Position numbers and translations under genes: made by a program
DNA from: Nautilia sp. PV-1
Lineage (GTDB): Bacteria; Campylobacterota; Campylobacteria; Campylobacterales; Nautiliaceae
Direction: 5' to 3'
DNA: 47,112 bases
Assembly: GCF_004006315.1 (NCBI RefSeq)
Contig: NZ_CP026530.1
Location: 617,889-665,000 of the forward strand
Notes under the pieces: model-generated
What the model saw: only the letters and a program-made list of their open reading frames with translations
Databases searched by the model: none
What the model was told of the DNA's origin: nothing
Shown: piece by piece, positions 12,984 to 43,385 of the stretch
How the letters are laid out: each line of letters opens with the position of its first letter
Numbering within the stretch: position 1 is the first letter of the stretch

Positions 12984-14684
12984 TTGTGTGCAATATTTGG
13001 AATTATAGGGAAGATTGACATTAAAAAAATTGAATATTCATTAGATTTGATGCATAATAGGGGAAAGGATTTTGATTCAATAAAAAAAACTTCCAATGCG
13101 GTTTTCGGATTTAACAGGCTGGCCATAGAAAATATAGATACAAATATACAGCCTCTTGTTTTAGGTAAAAAAATGTTTGTATTTAACGGGGAAATATATA
13201 ACTATAAAAATCTTATTAAAGATTACAATTTAAAAGCACAGACAGAAATCGAAGTTATTGCGTCTTTATGGAATAAGTTCGGAGTGGAGTTTGTAAAAAA
13301 ACTCGACGGTATGTTTGCTATTGCAATATACGACAAAAAACTTTATCTTTTTAGAGACGAGTTCGGTAAAAAACCTCTTTATTTTACAAAAAACGGTATT
13401 TTTGCAAGTGAAATTAAAGCTATATTGCCTTTTTTTGAAAAAAAGCTGAATTTACAGGCTCTTAGTGAATATCTGGCATATAATTCTTCACTGGCTCCAA
13501 ACACCATATATGAAGGTATATATAAGCTGCCGGCAGGCTGCTATTTTGACGGAGAAATAAAAAGATGGCACGATTTTAATAGAATTGAGAATGGAGAATG
13601 GAAAATTGAGAATTGTATTATTGAGATTGAAAAACTTTTAACAAATTCTGTTGAAAAAAGGCTTATGGGTGAGGTTGAGGTCGGTTCACTTCTAAGCGGT
13701 GGGGTTGACAGCAGTCTGATTGCCGCGATAATGTCAAAACAAAGAAAAATAAAGACATTCAGTATCGGTTACGACGGATACGAAAACTATGACGAAAGAA
13801 GATATGCGAAATTAACAGCCGAACATATCGGAAGCGAACATTATGAGGTGAATTATACAAAACAGAACTTTTTTGATGAATTTGAAAACGTGCTTTTTTC
13901 CATGGACGAACCTATAGCCGACAGCAGTTTTTTCCCTGCTAATTTTTTAGCTAAACATATTCCTTTAAAAGTAGTATTAAGCGGAGAGGGGAGCGATGAA
14001 CTGTTTTTGGGATACAGAAGATATAATGAATATCTGGGTTTTTTCGATGCATATCTTCCGAATAAAAAATGGCTTAAAAAATATCTTGAAAGACATCCGG
14101 AAGATATCAAAGAATGGGAAATATTCAGGAGGTTTTTTGCCGATGAGGTTGTTTTCAGAGGGATTAACGAAACTTTTTATCAAAGACAGATAAACAGAGT
14201 TTTGAAAAAAAATGCGTATGAAGTTGATTATAAAAGATTTGTAAAGGGATGGGGGAGTTTTGATTTTACTTATTTCGATTTGAAAGTATGGATAGGCGAA
14301 GTGCTTTTAATGAAACTTGATAAAATGTTTATGGCTAATACAATTGAAGCCAGAAGTCCTTTTTTAGACAAAAATCTGGTAAACTTCGTTTTTTCTCTGC
14401 CGGAAAATATCAGAGGCAAAAATAAATGGATTGTTAAAGAAATAGCAAAAAAACATGTTCCTATAGAAATTGTAAACAGAAGGAAAAAAGGTTTTGCTTT
14501 TCCTTTTTTAGAATGGCTCAAAGAAGAAAACGAATTAAGAGTCATTATTGACGTAAACAGAGAAACTAAAATTTTTAATGAGGAATATCTTAAAGAAATA
14601 ATAAAAACAGGTCACAAAAGATACAAACAGCATCTTTGGACGCTGTATCTTTTCAGCCGTTTTGTAAAAAAGGAATTTTTATGA
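12984..14684 (+). CDS. asnB: Asparagine synthetase, glutamine-hydrolysing
   Basis: Makes asparagine from aspartate, glutamine and ATP. The N-terminal Ntn glutaminase begins CAIFGIIG after the start, so the TTG at 12984 is required to leave Cys2 as the nucleophile; it contains HNRGKDFD and FNGEIYN. The C-terminal domain carries the PP-loop SGGVDSS (about residue 239), LSGEGSDELFLGYRRY, and the closing RRKKGFAFPFLEWL. Length 566 is normal. Between the two domains, residues 200-212 (RIENGEWKIENC) are encoded by an AATTGAGAATGGAGAATGG-like repeat, probably a small in-frame insertion. The gene overlaps the corA-like gene by ATGA. Confidence 0.93.
   Translation: MCAIFGIIGKIDIKKIEYSLDLMHNRGKDFDSIKKTSNAVFGFNRLAIENIDTNIQPLVLGKKMFVFNGEIYNYKNLIKDYNLKAQTEIEVIASLWNKFGVEFVKKLDGMFAIAIYDKKLYLFRDEFGKKPLYFTKNGIFASEIKAILPFFEKKLNLQALSEYLAYNSSLAPNTIYEGIYKLPAGCYFDGEIKRWHDFNRIENGEWKIENCIIEIEKLLTNSVEKRLMGEVEVGSLLSGGVDSSLIAAIMSKQRKIKTFSIGYDGYENYDERRYAKLTAEHIGSEHYEVNYTKQNFFDEFENVLFSMDEPIADSSFFPANFLAKHIPLKVVLSGEGSDELFLGYRRYNEYLGFFDAYLPNKKWLKKYLERHPEDIKEWEIFRRFFADEVVFRGINETFYQRQINRVLKKNAYEVDYKRFVKGWGSFDFTYFDLKVWIGEVLLMKLDKMFMANTIEARSPFLDKNLVNFVFSLPENIRGKNKWIVKEIAKKHVPIEIVNRRKKGFAFPFLEWLKEENELRVIIDVNRETKIFNEEYLKEIIKTGHKRYKQHLWTLYLFSRFVKKEFL
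13583..13615 (+). repeat. Short GAGAAT-type tandem repeat inside asnB
   Basis: The bases AATTGAGAATGGAGAATGG and then AAAATTGAGAATTG contain three GAGAAT units 7 and 16 bases apart. They encode RIENGEWKIEN in the linker between glutaminase and synthetase domains, where other AsnB proteins have unrelated sequence. Similar GGAGAAT repeats occur in many bacteria, both between genes and as in-frame inserts. Confidence 0.5.
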
Positions 14685-15448
14685 AATTTAAAATAAACAA
14701 GTATTTAATAGATGATATTGAAAACAAAGACCATCCGAGCGATTTTGAAGTAGTGAGCGATTATTCCATACTGATATTAAGACTGCCTTTTATAGATAAA
14801 GAAGCTGTTGAAGTGGTTTCATATGCGTTTTTGATAAAAGACGGCAAGGTTTATAAATACGACAGAAAAACTAAAGAATTTGAAATGCTTGGCACATTCA
14901 GCGATCTTTATGATTATCTCGATACGAGAATAGATAAAATTTTGGCTAAAATCAGTAAACTGCACATAGCTATTGCAAAAATGGAAGATGAACTTTATGA
15001 AAATGATATGCCTGTTGATTTTTCAAATAACTGGCTTAAATTTAAAAAAGAGCTTGTATTGATAGAAAGGCTTATGGGACATTCATTAATAGCGTTTGAG
15101 AGATTTATAAAATATTACAAAAACAGTATTGACGAACTTGCATTTAAAGATTTAGCCGAGCATATCGACAGGGCTTTCAGGTTTTCGAAAAATGCAATTG
15201 AAAAACTGGATTATTTATATGAATTTTTTAAAGCAAAGCAGGATGAAAAGATGAATAATATAATGTTTATTTTAACGATTCTTTCGGCCATATTCTTACC
15301 GCTGACATTGATAACTGGATTTTTCGGGATGAATACGGGAGGGCTTCCTTTTACCCAGGATCCGAGCGGAACGCTTAAAGCCATAGGGATTTCCCTTCTT
15401 TTTGAAGTGCCTTTTGTGTTTTTTATATGGAAAATGATGAAAAGTTAA
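14681..15448 (+). CDS. CorA-family divalent cation transporter
   Basis: Inner-membrane channel-like transporter for Mg2+ or a related divalent ion. The 255-residue protein has a soluble N-terminal domain with a long coiled helix (about 95-205), then two C-terminal membrane helices. The first ends in the family signature GFFGMNTGG (the GMN filter motif), the second is the terminal VPFVFFIWKMM helix. It is shorter than E. coli CorA (316), with a reduced N-terminal domain, as in several small CorA/ZntB relatives. The start is the ATG overlapping the asnB stop (ATGA); the in-frame codons further upstream lie within asnB. Ion preference cannot be read from the sequence. Confidence 0.85.
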   Translation: MKFKINKYLIDDIENKDHPSDFEVVSDYSILILRLPFIDKEAVEVVSYAFLIKDGKVYKYDRKTKEFEMLGTFSDLYDYLDTRIDKILAKISKLHIAIAKMEDELYENDMPVDFSNNWLKFKKELVLIERLMGHSLIAFERFIKYYKNSIDELAFKDLAEHIDRAFRFSKNAIEKLDYLYEFFKAKQDEKMNNIMFILTILSAIFLPLTLITGFFGMNTGGLPFTQDPSGTLKAIGISLLFEVPFVFFIWKMMKS

Positions 15449-15456
15449 AGGGAAAT

Positions 15457-16215
15457 TTAAGACTCCCTGTACAGCATATACGGATTTCTCTGATTCGTAG
15501 GCATTATGTCGATATACTGAATGTTTACGTGAGGCGGAGTATTTAATGCACATATTATTGTATTTGCAATATCCTCAGCGCTTAAAGGCGTAAATCCTTC
15601 ATAAACTTTTTTTGCCTTTTTCTTGTCACCTTTAAATCTTACGTTTGAAAATTCAGTTTCAACTGCTCCGGGTGCAATGTTTGTGACTTTTATATTTGTT
15701 CCGTATGCATCGATATTCATACTGTCATTCAGAGAATGTAGTGCCGCTTTTGTAGCACAGTATACATTACCGCCTGTGTATGCAGTTTTACCCGCGACGG
15801 AGCCTAAATTTACTATATGCCCTTCATTTCTTTCTTTCATGTGTCTGAATATCGGTTTTGTTACGTAAAGGACCCCTTTGATGTTTGTGTCAATCATTAT
15901 GTCCCAGTCTTCGGGATTTCCTTCATCGATCGGTTCAAGTCCTAAAGCCAGCCCGGCGTTGTTAATAAGAATATCTATGTGTGTTATTTGTAAAATTTCT
16001 TTGATTGTCTGTGTTACGGCTTCTTTATCTCTCACGTCAAAAGTAAATGTAAGAGTCTGTACTTCAAGGGTGTTTTTTAGTTCATTGAGTTTTTTTTCAT
16101 CTCTTCCGGTTAAAATCAGATTTACACCCATGTTGTTTAACGCTTTTGCCGTTGCTTTGCCTATTCCCGAGGTGGCTCCCGTAATTAACGCAATTTTGCC
16201 TTCTATGAAATTCAT
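15457..16215 (-). CDS. Short-chain dehydrogenase/reductase, YdfG-like
   Basis: Classical SDR of 252 residues. The NAD(P) motif TGATSGIGKA is near residue 13, Arg in LTGRDEKK suggests NADP, NNAG is at about 87, and the catalytic Ser (NLGSVAG) and Tyr-Lys (YCATK) are present. The C-terminal part resembles YdfG-type L-allo-threonine/serine/3-hydroxypropionate dehydrogenases; the exact substrate is open. Two ATGs compete. The one at 16221 sits right on the ribosome site, while the one at 16215 has AAGGA six bases upstream and overlaps the preceding stop (TAATG), so I use 16215. Convergent with the corA-like gene eight bases away. Confidence 0.85.
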   Translation of the reverse strand: MNFIEGKIALITGATSGIGKATAKALNNMGVNLILTGRDEKKLNELKNTLEVQTLTFTFDVRDKEAVTQTIKEILQITHIDILINNAGLALGLEPIDEGNPEDWDIMIDTNIKGVLYVTKPIFRHMKERNEGHIVNLGSVAGKTAYTGGNVYCATKAALHSLNDSMNIDAYGTNIKVTNIAPGAVETEFSNVRFKGDKKKAKKVYEGFTPLSAEDIANTIICALNTPPHVNIQYIDIMPTNQRNPYMLYRES

Positions 16216-35346: not shown

Positions 35347-35434
35347 TTTTCTTCTTTTTTAATCTTTTTTTCCTTTATTTACTTTTTGTTAACTTTACTA
35401 TATTATTATTTTAGAAATAAAAAAAGGAGTGCCT

Positions 35435-35671
35435 ATGCTGCTAAATGAAATGATAATTGATGAAAACAATATGGCGTTTATACCGTCACTCGGAACATCC
35501 TATCAGCTTAATAAAACGGCAAAAGAAATTATTGACCTTCTTAAACAGGGCAAAAATAAAGACGAAATAGTAAAAATAATAGCGGAAAACACCGGAGCCA
35601 ATTGGCGAGACGTGTATGTTGATGTTGAAGATTTTTTCCAAAAACTTAAAATATACGGACTAATTCAATGA
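35435..35671 (+). CDS. PqqD-like protein
   Basis: A 78-residue protein of the PqqD fold. A short beta start (MLLNEMIIDENNMAFIPSLG), then SYQLNKTAKEIIDLLKQGK, the PqqD hallmark of an aromatic-x-Leu/Asn and a helix with an (I/L)(W/I)(D/E)L pattern, then KDEIVKIIAENTG and VDVEDFFQKLKIYGLI, the closing helix. PqqD and the related RRE domains bind peptide substrates for modifying enzymes. The ATG at 35435 has AAGGAG five bases upstream; the GTG two codons before lies on it. First gene of the seven-gene operon, overlapping the ATP-grasp gene by ATGA. Confidence 0.75.
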   Translation: MLLNEMIIDENNMAFIPSLGTSYQLNKTAKEIIDLLKQGKNKDEIVKIIAENTGANWRDVYVDVEDFFQKLKIYGLIQ

Positions 35672-36678
35672 AAATAGCTATCAGCGGACTAAATAACACT
35701 GACAATCCGGCTCCGGGAATACCAGTTGCCAAAAGTTTGATGGATGAGCATTCTTTAATAGGACTCAGTTATGACCCTAATGAACCGGGTGTTTATCAGG
35801 GACTGTTTGAAAAAATATATCTTATGCCTTATCCAAGTTTAGGATATGATGAGTTTAAAAAAAGAATTACCGATATTAAAGAAAAATCTGATATAGAAAT
35901 GGCGATACCAAATTTGGATGCGGAGCTTCCTCTGTACATTAAATATCAAAAAGAGATAGAAGAATTAGGTATAAAAACATATTTGCCGTCTCTTGAGTGT
36001 TTTGAAATGAGAGACAAAAGTAAACTGCCGGAATTCAGTAAAAAGCTGGGAGTAAAACATCCAAAGACTATAGAAGTCGTTTCGCTTGACGATTTAATAA
36101 AAGCAACTAAGGAGCTTGGATTCCCTGTAATGGTAAAAGGAAATTATTATAAAGCTTATAAAGCTTATAACCTTGATGAAGCTATTGAGTATTATTATAA
36201 AATTTCCAACGAGTGGGGATTTCCTCTGCTTGTTCAGGAAGTTATAAACGGTAATGAAATAAATTTTGTCGGAATCGGAAACGGTGAAAAACTAATAGCC
36301 GGGGTAGGTATGAAAAAACTGACTACAACGGAGCTTGGCAAGGTTTGGAGTGCCATAAGCATAAAAAATGAAAAGCTTTTTAATGCCAGTAAACAGTTCG
36401 TGGAAACTATCGGATGGAGAGGTGCATTTGAATTTGAAGCTATGAGCGACGGAAAAGACATATATTTAATAGAGATTAATCCAAGGTTTCCGGCATGGGT
36501 GTATTTTTCAACGATGTTGGGAATTAATCTTCCTAAAATTTTATTAAAACTTGCAAACGGGGAAAAAGTTCAAGAACAGTTTGATTATCCGTTGGAAAAA
36601 ATGTATGTCAGATATGTAGAAGAGACTATGGCTGATTTTAATAAATTTTCAGCATTAATATCAAAAAAAGAGATATAA
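35668..36678 (+). CDS. ATP-grasp family ligase
   Basis: A carboxylate-amine or thiol ligase-type ATP-grasp protein of 336 residues. An N-terminal pre-ATP-grasp domain (about 1-110, MKIAISGLNN.D.PAPGIPVAKSL) is followed by the ATP-grasp core: GFPVMVKGNYYKAY (ATP-binding Lys), LLVQEVINGNEINF (hinge), and the metal-binding EINPRFPAW at about 270. It resembles the carbamoyl-phosphate-synthase-like branch. Substrate unknown. A short internal duplication gives YKAYKAY. With the PqqD-like protein before it, peptide or amino-acid conjugation is a reasonable inference. It starts inside the pqqD-like stop, and the PLP gene follows after 15 bases. Confidence 0.8.
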   Translation: MKIAISGLNNTDNPAPGIPVAKSLMDEHSLIGLSYDPNEPGVYQGLFEKIYLMPYPSLGYDEFKKRITDIKEKSDIEMAIPNLDAELPLYIKYQKEIEELGIKTYLPSLECFEMRDKSKLPEFSKKLGVKHPKTIEVVSLDDLIKATKELGFPVMVKGNYYKAYKAYNLDEAIEYYYKISNEWGFPLLVQEVINGNEINFVGIGNGEKLIAGVGMKKLTTTELGKVWSAISIKNEKLFNASKQFVETIGWRGAFEFEAMSDGKDIYLIEINPRFPAWVYFSTMLGINLPKILLKLANGEKVQEQFDYPLEKMYVRYVEETMADFNKFSALISKKEI

Positions 36679-36693
36679 ATTAAGGAGTATAAA

Positions 36694-38028
36694 ATGTATG
36701 AAAAACCTACAATAAACAGAGTTGATTTCGCAATGGCCAGCAAATACGGCTCACCACTTAAAACACAGAAAATCAGAAGCGAAATTGACGGAGTAGGAGT
36801 TCATGAACTAGTAGAAAAGTACGGTTCTCCTCTGTTTGTATTCAGCGAAAGAGTAATAGAAGAAAAATATATGGAATTTAAAAACGCATTTACAAGCAGA
36901 TATCCGGAAGTAGAATTCTGGTGGAGTTATAAAACCAATTATCTGGATGCAATATGCAAAATATATCATAAACTCGGAAGTAAAGCCGAAGTTGTAAGCG
37001 AATTTGAATATGAAAAAGCCAGAAGACTCGGAATAGAAGGTAAAAATATTATTTTCAACGGTCCTTACAAACCGAAAGAAGCTCTTAAAAAAGCTGTAGA
37101 AGAAGGTGCAAAAATTCATATTGACCACTGGTATGAAATAAATGATCTTGAAGAAATAGCGGATGAACTCGGCATAGAAATTCCCGTAGCAATCAGATGT
37201 AATATGGATACGGGAGTATATCCGCAGTGGAGCAGATTCGGATTTAATATCGATAACGGTGAAGCTTATGATGCGATTAAAAGAATCTATGAAGGTAAAA
37301 AGTTATATTTAACAGGGCTTCATTCTCATATCGGAACGTTTATGCTAAGTGCTAACGCGTATGCAAACGAAACAAAAAAACTTATAGAACTTAAAAATAA
37401 AATTGAAAAAGATTTCGGTTATGAAATAGAATATATCGATATAGGAGGAGGGTTTGCCAGCAAAAACAGATTAAAAGGCGTATATCAGGCTCCTGAAGTT
37501 ATTGTTCCTAGTGCCGATGAATATGCTGAAGCCGTTACAAATGCGATATTTGAAACAAATAAAGGAAAACTTCCTAAACTTTTCCTTGAAACCGGAAGAG
37601 CGCTAATTGATGAAGCGGGTTATCTGCTTACAAGCGTGTTTGCCGCTAAAAGAATGCCTGACGGTAAAAAAAGTTATATTGTAGATGCGGGAGTGAATCT
37701 TTTATATACAGCATTTTGGTATAACTTTGAAATAGCTTTGGATAAAAGATATGAAGGATTAAACGAACCTTCTCAGATAAACGGACCTTTATGCATGAAT
37801 ATTGATGTTATTTCAGAGAATATAATGCTTCCTGCTTTGCAAAGAGGAAGTGTTTTAAGTATTTGGCCTGTCGGAGCATATAACGTGACTCAGGCTATGC
37901 AGTTTATCAGATACAGACCTAGAATTGTTTTGATCGATAAAAATTCAAATACTCATATTATCAAAGAAGCTGATGATTTGGATTACATTGTAGAAAAAGA
38001 ACATATTCCTGAATATTTAAAAGGTTAA
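36694..38028 (+). CDS. LysA-like fold-III PLP decarboxylase, altered substrate motif
   Basis: Family of diaminopimelate, arginine and related decarboxylases: alanine-racemase-type TIM barrel plus a beta domain, 444 residues. PLP-binding Lys80 (FWWSYKTNYLDA), HSHIGTF, the glycine loop YIDIGGGFASK and ETGRALIDEAG (Arg contacts) are present. The usual CESGD/CESTD motif at the dimer active site reads C367-MNID: Cys and Asp are kept, but the Glu and Ser that bind diaminopimelate are Met and Asn. GAYNVTQAMQF matches the LysA GAY block. So the fold is clear, but the substrate is probably not diaminopimelate. Confidence 0.85.
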   Translation: MYEKPTINRVDFAMASKYGSPLKTQKIRSEIDGVGVHELVEKYGSPLFVFSERVIEEKYMEFKNAFTSRYPEVEFWWSYKTNYLDAICKIYHKLGSKAEVVSEFEYEKARRLGIEGKNIIFNGPYKPKEALKKAVEEGAKIHIDHWYEINDLEEIADELGIEIPVAIRCNMDTGVYPQWSRFGFNIDNGEAYDAIKRIYEGKKLYLTGLHSHIGTFMLSANAYANETKKLIELKNKIEKDFGYEIEYIDIGGGFASKNRLKGVYQAPEVIVPSADEYAEAVTNAIFETNKGKLPKLFLETGRALIDEAGYLLTSVFAAKRMPDGKKSYIVDAGVNLLYTAFWYNFEIALDKRYEGLNEPSQINGPLCMNIDVISENIMLPALQRGSVLSIWPVGAYNVTQAMQFIRYRPRIVLIDKNSNTHIIKEADDLDYIVEKEHIPEYLKG

Positions 38029-38029
38029 A

Positions 38030-40054
38030 ATGTTGCATAAACTGAAGTTTGTTTTTAAACCGTATGTTTCCATACTTTTTTTAAGGGATGTTAAAGCGGG
38101 GGTAATACTTTTCCTTCTTTCTTTCTTACTTCCGAGTGTAGGGATATTAGGTATCGTTGCGATATTGGCAACAGTAATGTTTGCTGAATTTATAAATGTC
38201 AGGGATGAATATTTAAAATACGGATTTTATTTATATAATTCGTTGCTGGTCGGTATGGGGGTCGGATATTTTTTTGATGTTACTGTTGTGACCGTTCTTT
38301 TGACGGCTATGCTTTCTATACTTACTTTTTTGGTGTCTTTTAGTATAAATAAAGTGTTTATTAAATACTCTTTACCTCTTTTATCTCTGCCTTTTGCATT
38401 TGTAAGTATGATTTTTTATCTTGCAAGTTTAAAATATACTTCTCTTTTGAGTAATATTTTATATCGTAAAGCGCTTTTTGATATTAATTTCCCTTTTGAA
38501 CAGTTTTTTAAGTCTATGGGGACTATTTTCTTTCTTCCGTATGTTTTTGCAGGAGTTGTTATCTCTTTGATCATATTATTTTATTCAAGGATTTTGTTTT
38601 TGCTTGCTTTTACAGGATTTTGGGCCGGTGTATGGTTCCATTCGTTTTTTATACCTTTTTCAAAAGCGCTTAATTCTCCGTATAATTTTAATTTTATACT
38701 GATAGCCATGGCTCTTGGAGGAGTGTTTTTAATCCCTAATTTAAAAAATTTCTTTCTTGCATTTTTGGCAATATTTTTATCAATAGTTTTAATTGATGCG
38801 ATGGAAGTGTTTTTTAATATATACGCACTTCCGGTATATACGCTTCCTTTTAATATTATGACGCTTCTTTTTATTATGATTCTTTTTAGTATGGGATACG
38901 CTTATTTTAATTACAATATTAAAGGAACGCCCGAAAAATCACTTATTTCTTTTTTAAGCAATTATTACAGATTTGGCGGAAACGATATTAAAATAAATCT
39001 GCCTTTTACCGGAAAATGGACTGTTTATCAGGCTTTTGACGATGAATGGACTCATAAAGGAAACTGGAAATACGCTTATGATTTTGTAATCAAGAAAAAC
39101 GGTAAAAGTTATGAAAATGACGGACTGTTTTTGGAAGATTATTATGCATTCGGCAAACCTGTTACCGCTCCAGTAAACGGTTACGTTATCGCGTTAAGGG
39201 ATGATTTGGCTGATAACTTTATAGGCAATGTGGACAGAACCAATAACTGGGGGAATTATATTATTATAAAAAGCGATTACGGATATTTTGTAGAAATTTC
39301 GCATTTAATGCAAAATTCGATAAACGTAAAAGTAGGGGATTATGTAAAAGTTGGAGATATAATTGCGAAATGCGGTAACAGCGGTTATTCTCCGGAGCCT
39401 CATATTCATATCCAGGTTCAGAAATTTGGTGTTTTGGGAAGTGAGACTATTCCTTTTAAATTTATTGACTATATAAAAGACAATAGGCTTTATTTTTATG
39501 AGCTGCCTAAAAAAAATGAAACTGTTGAATCAACGACGGTGGATAAATCTATGAAACTGAGACTGACGTTTATTTTGGATGATTATTTTAAATATGAAAT
39601 TTATAAAAATAACAGTAAAATTAAAGAAACAGGATTTACTGTAAAAATGAACGATAAAGGGGAATTTTATTTTACAGACGGACAAAACAGACTCTATTTT
39701 TATACAGATGAGAAACTTTTTTATTTTTATGAATATGAAGGAAAAGACAGTTTGTTAAAAAGCCTGTTTAAGGTGGCTCCAAAAATACCGTTGATAAATA
39801 AAGAAGTGGAATATGAAGATGTTATTCCGCCTCAGTTTAAATACGGTTTATTTAAGAAAATTATAATTGAACTTGTTTTGCCTTTTAATTATAAAATGTT
39901 TGCAAAAAAAGTTTTATATTATAAAGAAATGCTGAAAATAAAATCAGAATACGGGGAAGTTACTTTTTCATTTTATGAAAAAGGGTTTGATAAAATAAGA
40001 TTTGAAAACACGGAATTAAGGAGAATATATGAAAAAGCTGATAATTCTGATTAG
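38030..40054 (+). CDS. Urea-transporter-like membrane domain fused to M23 peptidase-like domain
   Basis: A 674-residue fusion. Residues 1-300 hold about ten hydrophobic segments with the pattern of the urea transporter (UT) family, such as an FL..Y...NSLLVG(M/L) repeat half. Residues 325-500 are LytM/M23-like: PVTAPVNGYVIAL, NNWGNYIIIKS, VKVGDYVKVGDIIAKCGNSG and PHIHIQV (His458, His460), plus His425. The first zinc-ligand position (HxxxD) reads KYAYD351, so His is replaced and the Zn site may be altered. Residues 500-674 are a further soluble part I do not recognise. Peptidoglycan or peptide cleavage next to a small-solute channel is the inference. Confidence 0.75.
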   Translation: MLHKLKFVFKPYVSILFLRDVKAGVILFLLSFLLPSVGILGIVAILATVMFAEFINVRDEYLKYGFYLYNSLLVGMGVGYFFDVTVVTVLLTAMLSILTFLVSFSINKVFIKYSLPLLSLPFAFVSMIFYLASLKYTSLLSNILYRKALFDINFPFEQFFKSMGTIFFLPYVFAGVVISLIILFYSRILFLLAFTGFWAGVWFHSFFIPFSKALNSPYNFNFILIAMALGGVFLIPNLKNFFLAFLAIFLSIVLIDAMEVFFNIYALPVYTLPFNIMTLLFIMILFSMGYAYFNYNIKGTPEKSLISFLSNYYRFGGNDIKINLPFTGKWTVYQAFDDEWTHKGNWKYAYDFVIKKNGKSYENDGLFLEDYYAFGKPVTAPVNGYVIALRDDLADNFIGNVDRTNNWGNYIIIKSDYGYFVEISHLMQNSINVKVGDYVKVGDIIAKCGNSGYSPEPHIHIQVQKFGVLGSETIPFKFIDYIKDNRLYFYELPKKNETVESTTVDKSMKLRLTFILDDYFKYEIYKNNSKIKETGFTVKMNDKGEFYFTDGQNRLYFYTDEKLFYFYEYEGKDSLLKSLFKVAPKIPLINKEVEYEDVIPPQFKYGLFKKIIIELVLPFNYKMFAKKVLYYKEMLKIKSEYGEVTFSFYEKGFDKIRFENTELRRIYEKADNSD

Positions 40055-40619
40055 CATATGTGCGTCACTTTTTGCTCTTGATATAAAAAAAGCGTATTAT
40101 GAATCTTATAATTATGAAAAAATGGGTGATTATAAGGATGCGATTAAGGTTTTAATACCTGTATATAATAAATATCCTAACGGATATACGTTAAATTTAA
40201 GACTCGGATGGCTCTTTTATTTAAGCAAAAAATATCAAAATGCGCTTGACCATTATAAAAAAGCATCTTTAACGGCTCCTTATTCCATAGAGGCTAAGCT
40301 TGGTATTATGAGAACTTATTTGGCTGCAGGGGATTATGATAATGCTTTGAAAGTCGGAGATGTTGTTTTAAAAATAGACTATTATAACTATTACGGCAAT
40401 TATTATGAAGTTGTGGCTTTAATAGCTAAAAAGCAGTATGATACCGCACTTAAACTGACTGATAAGATGCTAAGTCTTTATCCGACAAGTGTTTTATTTT
40501 TGGTAGAGCTTGGAAAAATATATTATATAAAAGATAAAACAAAAGCAAAACAGATTTTTGAAGATGTATTAATTCTTGATCCGAATAACGTTATAGCAAA
40601 AGAGTATTTGAATAAATGA
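40029..40619 (+). CDS. Exported TPR-repeat protein
   Basis: A 196-residue protein with a signal peptide (MKKLIILISICASLFA) and about five tetratricopeptide-like repeats, for example YNYEKMGDYKDAIKVLIPVY, LGWLFYLSKKYQNALDHYKKA, LAAGDYDNALKVGD and YDTALKLTDKML. TPR domains bind partner proteins, so a scaffold in the periplasm is likely. The ATG at 40029 overlaps the end of the fusion gene by 26 bases, with AAGGAG upstream. It overlaps the regulator gene by ATGA. Confidence 0.8.
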   Translation: MKKLIILISICASLFALDIKKAYYESYNYEKMGDYKDAIKVLIPVYNKYPNGYTLNLRLGWLFYLSKKYQNALDHYKKASLTAPYSIEAKLGIMRTYLAAGDYDNALKVGDVVLKIDYYNYYGNYYEVVALIAKKQYDTALKLTDKMLSLYPTSVLFLVELGKIYYIKDKTKAKQIFEDVLILDPNNVIAKEYLNK

Positions 40620-41212
40620 AAATACTCTGTTTTACTCCTTTTGATTTAAAATTAAAAAAATTCGACTGTATGTATGCATTGGATGAAAATGATTTTTACG
40701 AAAAAATATTAAACAGAAAATATGACGTAATAATTGTATCTTTTGATTTTTATTCGGAATTTATAAATATTAAAGACTATGTTCATTCGACTGTTGTTTT
40801 TTTAAACAGTTACTGTGACAGTTTTATATATAAAAAGGTTCTGGAAGTAGGTGATTACTGCTATACATATGCAGAGTTTGATAAGTTTTTTTTGCGTTTG
40901 GAATATTTACAGAAAAAAATACTTAAATCAAAATCAACGGTATACAAAAGAGACAATCTTTTATATAATTTCAACACAAACGAACTGTATATTGATTCAA
41001 AGCCGGTTAAATTAAGCAGTGCAGAGAATGAACTTTTAAAAACACTGATAAAAAACAAAAATACATATCTTTCGAAAGAAGATATATTAATGGAGTGTGA
41101 CAGTATAGAAAGTATTGACTCTATTAAAGTTCTGATTTCTCATTTGAGAAAACTGGGGATAGAAATAGAAAATCAAAAAAATTTAGGATATAAAATAAAG
41201 GAGAAGGAATGA
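40616..41212 (+). CDS. Atypical winged-helix regulator with degenerate receiver
   Basis: A 198-residue protein. Residues 1-100 follow the receiver fold in outline (MKILCFTP, then YDVIIVSFDFY), but the acidic pair is absent and the phospho-acceptor position after DVIIV is Ser, so phosphorylation is unlikely. Residues 115-196 are an OmpR/PhoB-type winged helix: FNTNELYIDSKPVKLSSAENELLKTL, then SIKVLISHLRKLGIE and GYKI. No sensor kinase is nearby. Probably the local regulator of this operon, responding to a ligand or protein rather than to phosphorylation. Confidence 0.75.
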   Translation: MKILCFTPFDLKLKKFDCMYALDENDFYEKILNRKYDVIIVSFDFYSEFINIKDYVHSTVVFLNSYCDSFIYKKVLEVGDYCYTYAEFDKFFLRLEYLQKKILKSKSTVYKRDNLLYNFNTNELYIDSKPVKLSSAENELLKTLIKNKNTYLSKEDILMECDSIESIDSIKVLISHLRKLGIEIENQKNLGYKIKEKE

Positions 41213-42096
41213 AAAAACTGATTTTAAGCGCAATTGCGGTCTCAGCAGTGTTTGCAACTGAAATCATGCCATATACAAGTTTTATAAACTACAGTAAAGA
41301 CACCAGCAAAGATTATGCGAATGTTTTTGGTGTGTATCTGTCTCAATACAAAAGTCCTTATAAAATTGAATTGGACGGAGAATATATGAGACTGAAATAT
41401 AAAAATTCACCTGATTACAAGCAGTCTGATTTAACATTAATAATAAATTATTTTCAAGGCAGTAATTATAAATACAGAGTGGGTATTCATAATATTTTTG
41501 CCAGTAACCCGGAAACGGTTGTAAATTATCAGCCTCCTAGCATGAGAAATCCAAGTGGCACAACAACTACAACTACAAAATATGTCAATTCTTATGATTA
41601 TGTGCTGTTTGGAGGAGTTACATATTATCAGTATTTAAAATTTGATGCCGATTTAAATATTTACTATTCTAATTATGAAAATTTAAATGTAGTTCAGGTA
41701 TCTCCTTCTTATGGTTACAGTTTTGGAAATTACTATTCAACAATAGGGTCTTTTTATTTAAAAGGAACGTTAAATTATATTAATTTAAGCAATTCTGATG
41801 CGGCTCCAAAAGACAATTATTTTAATGTTGATTTAAAACTGGAAAATTATAAAGGTCCGTGGGTTACTACGTTAAATGCAAGTTTAGGAAAAACCGCATA
41901 TAAAGTAGCTAAAGACGGTTTTGTTGTTTATAACCTTGGTGAGGAGTATAAAAACAGTTATTCTGTAAGCGTTGGTAAAAAATTAAAAAACAACGATTAT
42001 GTTTCCGGTTCGGTAGAATACAGCACGTTTGAAGAAACTCCGGGATATGAAGCTTCCTCTACTACGTTTTTAATTAACTATATGCACAATTTTTAA
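41209..42096 (+). CDS. Putative outer-membrane beta-barrel protein
   Basis: A 295-residue exported protein: signal peptide MKKLILSAIAVSAVFATE, then alternating amphipathic strands rich in Tyr, Ser, Asn and Lys, and a C-terminal Phe (LINYMHNF), the usual sorting signal for outer-membrane barrels. About 12 strands are possible. A Thr-rich loop (SGTTTTTTK, near residue 120) is probably external. No porin family is recognised. The last gene of the seven-gene operon, joined to the regulator by ATGA. Its 3' end overlaps the converging metF gene by four bases. Confidence 0.7.
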   Translation: MKKLILSAIAVSAVFATEIMPYTSFINYSKDTSKDYANVFGVYLSQYKSPYKIELDGEYMRLKYKNSPDYKQSDLTLIINYFQGSNYKYRVGIHNIFASNPETVVNYQPPSMRNPSGTTTTTTKYVNSYDYVLFGGVTYYQYLKFDADLNIYYSNYENLNVVQVSPSYGYSFGNYYSTIGSFYLKGTLNYINLSNSDAAPKDNYFNVDLKLENYKGPWVTTLNASLGKTAYKVAKDGFVVYNLGEEYKNSYSVSVGKKLKNNDYVSGSVEYSTFEETPGYEASSTTFLINYMHNF

Positions 42097-42989
42097 AACA
42101 GCTCTTTAACCGTTTCAAAACGGTTTGCTGTCATTATATGAATTTTAGGATGCTTTTTTAAAAGTTTCTGGAACAAGTTTCTGCTTAATTCCATTCCGAC
42201 TTTATATTCTTCCTCTTCACTGATCTTATGTGCTTTTATTAGTTTTTCGATCCATTTTTCAGGCACATAGATTCCGGGAACGTGCGAGTGTAGAAACTGA
42301 GCCGTTTTTAGTTTTGTAATAGGGAAAAAGCCTAAAACAATTTCACTTTCTTTTCTTTCGTCCTGGAATTCTGAAACAATTTTATTTTTTATTTCTAATA
42401 GTTTGTCTACAATGTTTAAGTCGTAAACCGGCTGCGTTATAATTCCTACTGCATAATTTTGTATTTTTTTATACATTTTTCTTTCTATTGAAACAAAATT
42501 TTTAGCATACGAATTACTTACGACAAAAGGCGTTATAGGTTTAGGTTTTATTTTAAATTCTTTACCGCTGTAATCCATTCCGTTATTAAAAGCTCTAATT
42601 ATTTCCAGCAGTAAAATACTGCTGCCTTCTACTACGGCTTTGGCTTTCGGCTGGTCTGACATATTGGCCGGATCACCTGTTAATGCTAAAATATTTATTA
42701 CGTTTAAATCGTTTGCCCCCAGTAGATCGCTTTGAAGGGCTATTTTGTTTCTGTCTCTCATAGTCATGGTTGCAATAACCGGTTTTTTAAATTTTTCCTG
42801 TAATTTATATGCAGCGATAATAGAGTTATATTTCAATTTGCTTAAAGGACAGTCTGTTGTTGAAAATCCGTCAATATATTTTAATGCTCCGCTTTTTTCG
42901 ATTTTTTCTATCATTAAATCCACTGTAGGAAGTTTCGGAGGTGTGGTTTCAAGTGTAATATATTTGCCTTTTAGCTTTTCTTTTAACAT
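42093..42989 (-). CDS. metF: Methylenetetrahydrofolate reductase family protein
   Basis: FAD-dependent reduction of methylene-THF to methyl-THF for methionine synthesis. The 298-residue TIM barrel begins with ITLETTPPK (the Glu of the SFE.FPP-type start), and has the family block ILALTGDPAN, PVIATMTMRDRN, and GIITQPVYDL (catalytic Gln region). The N-terminal motif differs from E. coli MetF, as in a MetF-like group common in anaerobes, so electron donor and pathway could differ. AAGGAT precedes the ATG. It diverges from the modE-like gene. Confidence 0.85.
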   Translation of the reverse strand: MLKEKLKGKYITLETTPPKLPTVDLMIEKIEKSGALKYIDGFSTTDCPLSKLKYNSIIAAYKLQEKFKKPVIATMTMRDRNKIALQSDLLGANDLNVINILALTGDPANMSDQPKAKAVVEGSSILLLEIIRAFNNGMDYSGKEFKIKPKPITPFVVSNSYAKNFVSIERKMYKKIQNYAVGIITQPVYDLNIVDKLLEIKNKIVSEFQDERKESEIVLGFFPITKLKTAQFLHSHVPGIYVPEKWIEKLIKAHKISEEEEYKVGMELSRNLFQKLLKKHPKIHIMTANRFETVKELF

Positions 42990-43049: not shown

Positions 43050-43385
43050 ATGGATATTAAAGGGAATTTCTGGATAGAAAAAGAGGGTAAAAGTTTTTTG
43101 GGAAGAGGCAGAATTGAACTTTTGAAGAAAATAGACAAATACGGTTCTATTTCCAAAGCGGCAAAAGAAATGAAAATGAGCTATAAAGCTGCATGGGATG
43201 CGGTTGATATAATTAACAATCTGGCAAAAGAGCGTGTAGTTGAAAAAATAAGCGGCGGTAAAGGCGGCGGAGGAACCAGACTTACTGAGTACGGAAAAAA
43301 GCTTATTGATATGTTTGAAAGTGCCCAAAAAATATTTGAATCAGATTTGAAAGCATTGGAAGAATTTTTTAATAAAAAGATTTAA
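43050..43385 (+). CDS. ModE-type winged-helix regulator, DNA-binding domain only
   Basis: A 111-residue protein equivalent to the N-terminal domain of ModE: FWIEKEGKSFLGRGRIELLKKI, then GSISKAAKEMKMSYKAAWDAVD (helix-turn-helix, the ModE signature) and GGKGGGGTRLTEYGKKLI. The molybdate-binding MOP domains are absent, so it cannot sense molybdate in the usual way; stand-alone forms occur in many species. Likely targets are molybdate or tungstate uptake or molybdoenzymes, none of them nearby. Confidence 0.85.
   Translation: MDIKGNFWIEKEGKSFLGRGRIELLKKIDKYGSISKAAKEMKMSYKAAWDAVDIINNLAKERVVEKISGGKGGGGTRLTEYGKKLIDMFESAQKIFESDLKALEEFFNKKI

Follow-up and report, generated by a model that had tools for sequence, protein, structure and literature searches.

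What is the function of a run of seven chained genes encoding, in this order, a PqqD-like protein, an ATP-grasp ligase, a LysA-like decarboxylase, a fusion of a urea-channel (UT) fold with an M23 peptidase (UT-M23), an exported TPR protein, an OmpR-type regulator and a barrel? The question is raised by positions 35435-42096, on the + strand, of a 47,112-nucleotide stretch of the Nautilia sp. PV-1 genome (contig NZ_CP026530.1; this whole stretch is called hereafter the window). A first reading made from the letters alone, the sequence-only reading, had seen there one unit devoted to an amino-acid-derived product and to the envelope. We find that six of these families, the regulator being outside, form a core conserved in two phyla, and we tentatively propose that this core is a self-contained pathway for the ligation of a conjugate, its decarboxylation, and the release and export of a small amino-acid-derived product.

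Families were assigned by Pfam and NCBIfam profile searches, and folds by AlphaFold and Foldseek. The chain of seven genes, their order and their close junctions (genes overlapping or lying no more than 15 nucleotides apart) are as the sequence-only reading had described. The families it had named were confirmed by the profiles for all proteins except the barrel, which matches no Pfam or NCBIfam profile and is backed by an AlphaFold model of 14 strands (mean pLDDT 90.8).

That reading had also proposed to look for the PqqD, ATP-grasp and UT-M23 proteins together, and in the same order, across genomes. The ATP-grasp protein, used as query, retrieved 32 related loci, all from Nautiliaceae, Nitratifractor, Sulfurovum, Sulfurimonas or other Campylobacterota apart from L062, which belongs to a Mariprofundaceae metagenome-assembled genome (MAG). 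L062 is 99.8% identical over 3604 nucleotides to L050, from a Sulfurimonas MAG, and its contig is probably mis-binned. The genome of L062 led to a second phylum, which we infer to be Pseudomonadota; consistent with this, the DnaK of one of its genomes shares 66% identity with the E. coli protein and 57% with that of the window host. We thus sampled 397 genomes of Campylobacterota and 398 of the second phylum. ATP-grasp and UT-M23 are carried by the identical 18 of the 397 Campylobacterota. In the second phylum UT-M23-scale matches were found in 34 genomes and the ATP-grasp family in 36: 31 genomes have both, on the same contig every time, 3 have UT-M23 only and 5 ATP-grasp only. The ATP-grasp matches of this phylum all have E<=7e-79 and none falls from there to 1e-40, so that the family is discrete. 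Fisher's test of co-occurrence gives 1.6e-31 for Campylobacterota and 1.5e-37 for the second phylum, values uncorrected for relatedness, which overstate independence because the sampled genomes are related to each other.

The order is also conserved: ATP-grasp is followed by the LysA-like gene and then by UT-M23 in 47 of the 48 loci whose sequence runs on for 4 kb or more past the ATP-grasp gene, while in the exception, L056, UT-M23 lies on a different contig of the same MAG. A PqqD domain precedes ATP-grasp in nearly all of these loci. The TPR and barrel genes are more mobile, coming after these genes in either order, upstream of them (L039, L045, L095, L099) or on the opposite strand (L036, L037), and TPR is kept beside UT-M23 and/or the barrel in both phyla; the genes flanking the set vary from locus to locus. 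Besides, the family-tree distances of ATP-grasp, decarboxylase and UT-M23 correlate at r=0.98 over both phyla, and at 0.83-0.86 within Campylobacterota alone. This shows a grouping far beyond chance. That the genes are chance neighbours with unrelated functions could be argued from the regulator and the barrel, whose positions differ between lineages, but with the set carried by the same genomes in two phyla, in conserved order and with co-varying trees, this is hardly credible; these same three observations refute chance adjacency for the four to six genes of the core. The proposed unit of seven therefore stands as genes kept together in two phyla, but with a core of six families.

In the LysA-like enzyme the fold-III pyridoxal-phosphate (PLP) residues, the PLP lysine K80, the stacking histidine H212 and the catalytic C367, are present in 56/56 decarboxylases. 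With specificity positions assigned from the residue roles in PMC7857480, the signature T339 W342 Y343 C367-M-N-I-D Y396 Q400 is identical in the same 56, from both phyla, and therefore suggests one dedicated substrate. T339 occupies the position of the arginine of diaminopimelate decarboxylase (DAPDC; R343 of MjDAPDC), and C-M-N-I-D stands where DAPDC has C-E-S; a separate true lysA, 28% identical, is found elsewhere in the host genome and keeps both the arginine and C-E-S. As the specificity arginine and the acidic residue after the cysteine are missing in all 56, the function suggested by the name LysA-like was rejected; the TIGR01048 score (230.6 bits) is under its 297.9 cut-off.

The closest PDB match, 7kh2 (6.8e-57), is an N-citrylornithine decarboxylase, and the clade of FigC, SbnH, AcsE, MccE and BtrK mostly uses conjugated amino acids as substrates (PMC7857480). 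This homologue, together with an outer-membrane barrel and an export logic, would favour a product of citryl or polyamine type, made as in rhizoferrin biosynthesis. However, the citrate contacts H357/R387 of FigC are replaced by invariant I370/Q400 in 56/56, which led us to discard a citrate siderophore-type decarboxylase; the N-citrylornithine decarboxylase profile NF041039 scores 230 bits, under a cut-off of 500; the basic-substrate aspartate of ornithine and arginine decarboxylases is missing; and the set contains neither a synthetase for siderophores made independently of non-ribosomal peptide synthetases (NIS synthetase) nor a TonB-dependent receptor. A siderophore or polyamine pathway thus appears very improbable. 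The absence of the DAPDC arginine and acidic residue, as well as of H357/R387, fits a neutral amide-linked side chain: we infer that the distal end of the substrate is not a free amine, a free carboxylate or citrate, as for an amide-linked conjugate, and that the enzyme is a dedicated conjugate-type decarboxylase rather than LysA-like in function.

The ATP-grasp partner has invariant K117, K157, E255, E269, N271 and R273 in 23 sequences, that is, the residues expected for ATP and metal binding, and is of the CPSase-like type. The earlier idea that an ATP-grasp ligase and a fold-III decarboxylase would make an amino-acid-derived conjugate thus gains support from both proteins.

The AlphaFold model of UT-M23 (pLDDT 89.2) comprises a UT fold, an M23 domain and a C-terminal beta domain (about 500-670); in a structure search with the whole model, the best 50 matches concerned the UT and M23 parts only. 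The UT part superposes on dvUT (TMt 0.83) and has the two five-helix repeats of the fold (PF03253, 4e-57). The urea contacts Q24/E187 of dvUT are not kept, being S/A14 and a variable T/S/A165, and the slot is largely kept. In the M23 domain the zinc and catalytic residues H342, D351, H425, H458 and H460 are invariant in 53/53 proteins, as is a free cysteine, C448.

UT proteins have both ends inside the cell. In UT-B, glycosylation at N211, a site lying between the two halves of the protein (PMC10541013), supports this topology. In our proteins lysine plus arginine counts of the loops are higher inside than outside in 53/53, as expected from the positive-inside rule (12.5 vs 2.8 in Campylobacterota, 10.1 vs 2.0 in the second phylum). 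Topology and charge bias together predict a cytoplasmic M23 domain, which is thus probably not in the wall. M23 enzymes are usually peptidoglycan hydrolases and all five active-site residues are kept here, so that a periplasmic endopeptidase carried by a channel and remodelling the envelope might be envisaged; against it stand this topology, the invariant free cysteine and a haloarchaeal protein that lacks a signal peptide, belongs to a murein-less group and is among the closest plasmid-borne M23 proteins outside the family. We consider such remodelling improbable.

The PqqD-like protein belongs to its fold family (PF05402 above cut-off) and conserves D9 E10 N11, G20, D63, D66 and K70 among 23 relatives. 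A role as LysW-like amino-group carrier was dropped, as the C-terminal residues are not conserved. Ten Pseudomonadota loci encode a protein of 265-280 residues in which PqqD forms the C-terminal part and which matches TetR_N (over the Pfam cut-off in seven, under it in three), and this fusion ties the PqqD domain to gene control. PqqD may therefore serve for sensing or regulation, either in addition to the peptide-binding role first assigned to it or in its place.

The peptide-binding nature of PqqD domains is the main argument for another scheme, in which the PqqD-like protein would present a precursor or a protein to the ATP-grasp enzyme and the decarboxylase, with M23 as leader peptidase, in the manner of ribosomally synthesised and post-translationally modified peptides (RiPPs). 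A similarity to the PqqD chaperones of lasso peptides, weak and under cut-off (NF033530, 1.2e-7), and the modification of peptides by ATP-grasp ligases in graspetides go in the same direction. But the ATP-grasp here is not of the graspetide type, the relatives of the decarboxylase use small conjugates and not peptides, PqqD is missing in L093, L109 and L111, and no precursor gene was found in or beside the run: its gaps (at most 15 nucleotides) leave no space for one, and no short neighbour is conserved among open reading frames of at least 70 codons. A RiPP-like modification is thus unlikely.

The regulator is confined to the Campylobacterota clusters and absent from those of Pseudomonadota. 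It lacks the phosphorylatable aspartate of OmpR-type response regulators, the phospho-acceptor position of its receiver being a serine in the window protein and S, N or H in most cluster-linked relatives. The dedicated regulator of the sequence-only reading is thus a lineage-specific one.

The barrel has FadL and OmpG as nearest folds by Foldseek. TPR and barrel are fused in one protein near the set in L094, L096 and L097, the fusion having a weak SlipAM match. These two proteins point to the envelope, as was first supposed; of the export or remodelling then envisaged, remodelling by the peptidase is the part that loses ground. At L036 and L037 two adjacent barrel paralogues (13960-15926, -) replace the single in-line barrel. 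In the GC-rich second-phylum genomes of L094, L096 and L116, UT-M23 is followed by an amidotransferase of the asparagine-synthase type and by a large TPR protein, and in L094 and the related L115 contig a FecR protein comes before PqqD; this is possibly an extended form of the pathway.

How could these proteins work together? In the pathway that we propose, the cytoplasmic ATP-grasp enzyme would, by the chemistry of its family, link an amino acid to a carrier or a second acid through an amide bond, and the fold-III PLP enzyme, judging from its clade and pocket, would strip the alpha-carboxylate from this conjugate. The M23 domain, given its predicted topology and intact active site, would cut the conjugate where the UT channel opens into the cytoplasm, and the small product would exit through the UT pore; the periplasmic TPR protein and the 14-strand barrel, to judge by their location, might then bring it to the outside. 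The PqqD-like domain may bind a peptide or the product of the pathway, and the TetR fusion or the OmpR-type partner would couple the bound ligand to transcription.

Several observations weigh against this proposal. The set is sometimes reduced: L109 and L111 have ATP-grasp and decarboxylase with no PqqD or UT-M23 nearby, L110 has PqqD and both enzymes without UT-M23, and L097 and L114 have UT-M23 without biosynthetic enzymes nearby. In some Campylobacterota, UT-M23 and/or the decarboxylase are interrupted by frameshifts or stops (L101 of G052, G629:C1:202583-204381, and the LysA-like gene of L055); these broken copies reflect either local loss of the cluster or assembly errors, and a cluster that is patchy and sometimes frameshifted (G052, G629) is dispensable. 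With Q24/E187 lost, even urea-like solutes may be unable to cross this pore. A bulky product is hard to reconcile with UT channels, which admit nothing but very small neutral solutes, and porins normally suffice for such solutes, leaving TPR and barrel unexplained. Finally, the topology rests on charge statistics and homology. As for the neighbours of these incomplete loci, the reduced set of L109 and L111 lies near RND efflux genes and a formylglycine-generating-enzyme-like protein, and UT-M23 of L097 adjoins a TPR gene and the TPR-barrel fusion, with a gene for a large fold-I-like amino acid decarboxylase near.

The strongest rival is import in place of export. The barrel, TPR and UT proteins would take up a small amide or a peptide fragment, M23 would hydrolyse it, and ATP-grasp and decarboxylase would turn the fragments into a usable source of nitrogen or carbon. 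Members of the UT family are facilitated channels, mostly for uptake, the barrel resembles the FadL/OmpG uptake pores, a cytoplasmic M23 domain is ideally sited for an imported substrate, and the PqqD-TetR fusion could sense an imported ligand. On the other hand, a ligase that spends ATP is seldom part of a catabolic set, and the present set includes no periplasmic binding protein or active transporter, nor are catabolic enzymes conserved beside it. Uptake and breakdown are thus rather unlikely, and synthesis followed by export is the reading that we retain, tentatively as said. Its boldest form, in which these genes would define a pathway of a new class, for signalling or for a natural product, in Campylobacterota and Pseudomonadota, with a cytoplasmic M23 metallo-amidase physically coupled to a urea-fold channel, release of the product from its conjugate and membrane passage in one step, and a PqqD domain as product sensor, is a speculation to which we give rather little credit at present. 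No description of this combination of parts was found in the open literature, subscription papers being outside the search. A function in anti-phage defence was also considered and dropped, none of the seven proteins having a PADLOC match.

Vent-type bacteria of two phyla thus keep an uncharacterised six-gene set side by side. Since the set stays intact over a phylum-wide distance and has one invariant active-site signature, a single biochemical identification would annotate the set everywhere. If the proposal is true, both families would be put to a new use by this cytoplasmic M23 domain attached to a urea-type channel, and many vent-bacterial proteins that bear the annotation "urea transporter" or "M23 peptidase" would be neither.

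In the window, the PqqD-like and ATP-grasp genes overlap by 4 nucleotides, gaps of 15 and 1 nucleotides precede the LysA-like and UT-M23 genes, UT-M23 and TPR overlap by 26 nucleotides, and the two last junctions are overlaps of 4 nucleotides each. The ATG at 35435 is preceded by a good ribosome-binding site, AAAAAAGGAG. Upstream, an 88-nucleotide AT-rich gap separates the run from an IMPDH gene and probably holds the operon start; its promoter-like TTTACT-17-TATTAT (35378-35406) is a consensus match of a kind found at chance level across the region. Terminator-like matches within the run are all inside genes, none at junctions. Downstream, the barrel gene overlaps by 4 nucleotides a convergent MTHFR-like gene (42093-42989, -), beyond which 43050-43385 (+) encodes a short ModE/LysR-type helix-turn-helix protein without ligand domain. 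The host genome is a single contig of 1.79 Mb.

Table 1. Features of the seven-gene run and of the gap ahead of it (window positions).
Feature	Position	Strand	Support
AT-rich gap, promoter-like site and ribosome-binding site; probable operon start	35347..35434	+	consensus match
PqqD-like protein, 78 aa, RRE-type winged helix family	35435..35671	+	PF05402 6.6e-10
ATP-grasp ligase, 336 aa, own family (PRK12767/CPSase-like)	35668..36678	+	ATPgrasp_Ter 3.8e-11
Fold-III PLP decarboxylase, putative conjugate-decarboxylase type, 444 aa	36694..38028	+	Orn_Arg_deC_N 9.5e-31
UT (urea-channel fold)-M23 metallopeptidase-C-terminal beta domain fusion, 674 aa	38030..40054	+	UT 4e-57, Peptidase_M23 1.1e-13
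Exported TPR protein, 196 aa, apparent signal peptide	40029..40619	+	TPR_19 1.8e-15
OmpR-type winged-helix regulator, degenerate receiver, lineage-specific	40616..41212	+	Trans_reg_C 5.2e-7
Outer-membrane beta barrel, 295 aa, 14 strands, signal peptide	41209..42096	+	AlphaFold model

Each part of the set has known counterparts, from which it departs in some respects. Like dvUT and the SLC14 proteins, the channel has the fold, ten transmembrane helices and mostly N70/N221 and the phenylalanine slot, but it has lost the urea contacts and gained the M23 and beta domains. The M23 part has the invariant active site of the M23/LytM peptidases; unlike them it is fused to a channel, predicted cytoplasmic, endowed with the invariant C448 and shows an H-to-D spacing of nine, not four. 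The pairing of a periplasmic TPR protein and an outer-membrane barrel, which some loci encode as a single protein, recalls the Slam, AlgK/AlgE, BcsC and PgaA exporters, except that the barrel is closer to FadL/OmpG and that no polysaccharide synthase is present. In the butirosin side-chain pathway, BtrJ (ATP-grasp) and BtrK (decarboxylase) act on the carrier BtrI. Our set similarly joins an ATP-grasp ligase, a fold-III decarboxylase of the same clade (BtrK, PDB 7ru7/2j66, is a distant match, 3.6e-26) and a small partner protein; however BtrI is a phosphopantetheine carrier, whereas the small protein here is PqqD-like, with no conserved C-terminal attachment residue. Finally, the rhizoferrin pathway of FigC/FslC (PDB 7kh2) has no UT-M23, TPR or PqqD, its ligase is an NIS synthetase and not an ATP-grasp enzyme, and invariant I/Q stand here for its H357/R387; but the two decarboxylases have in common the GPxCM loop and the T327, Y331 and Y383 positions, and FigC/FslC, as we suppose for our enzyme, decarboxylates an amide-linked amino acid built by an ATP-dependent ligase.

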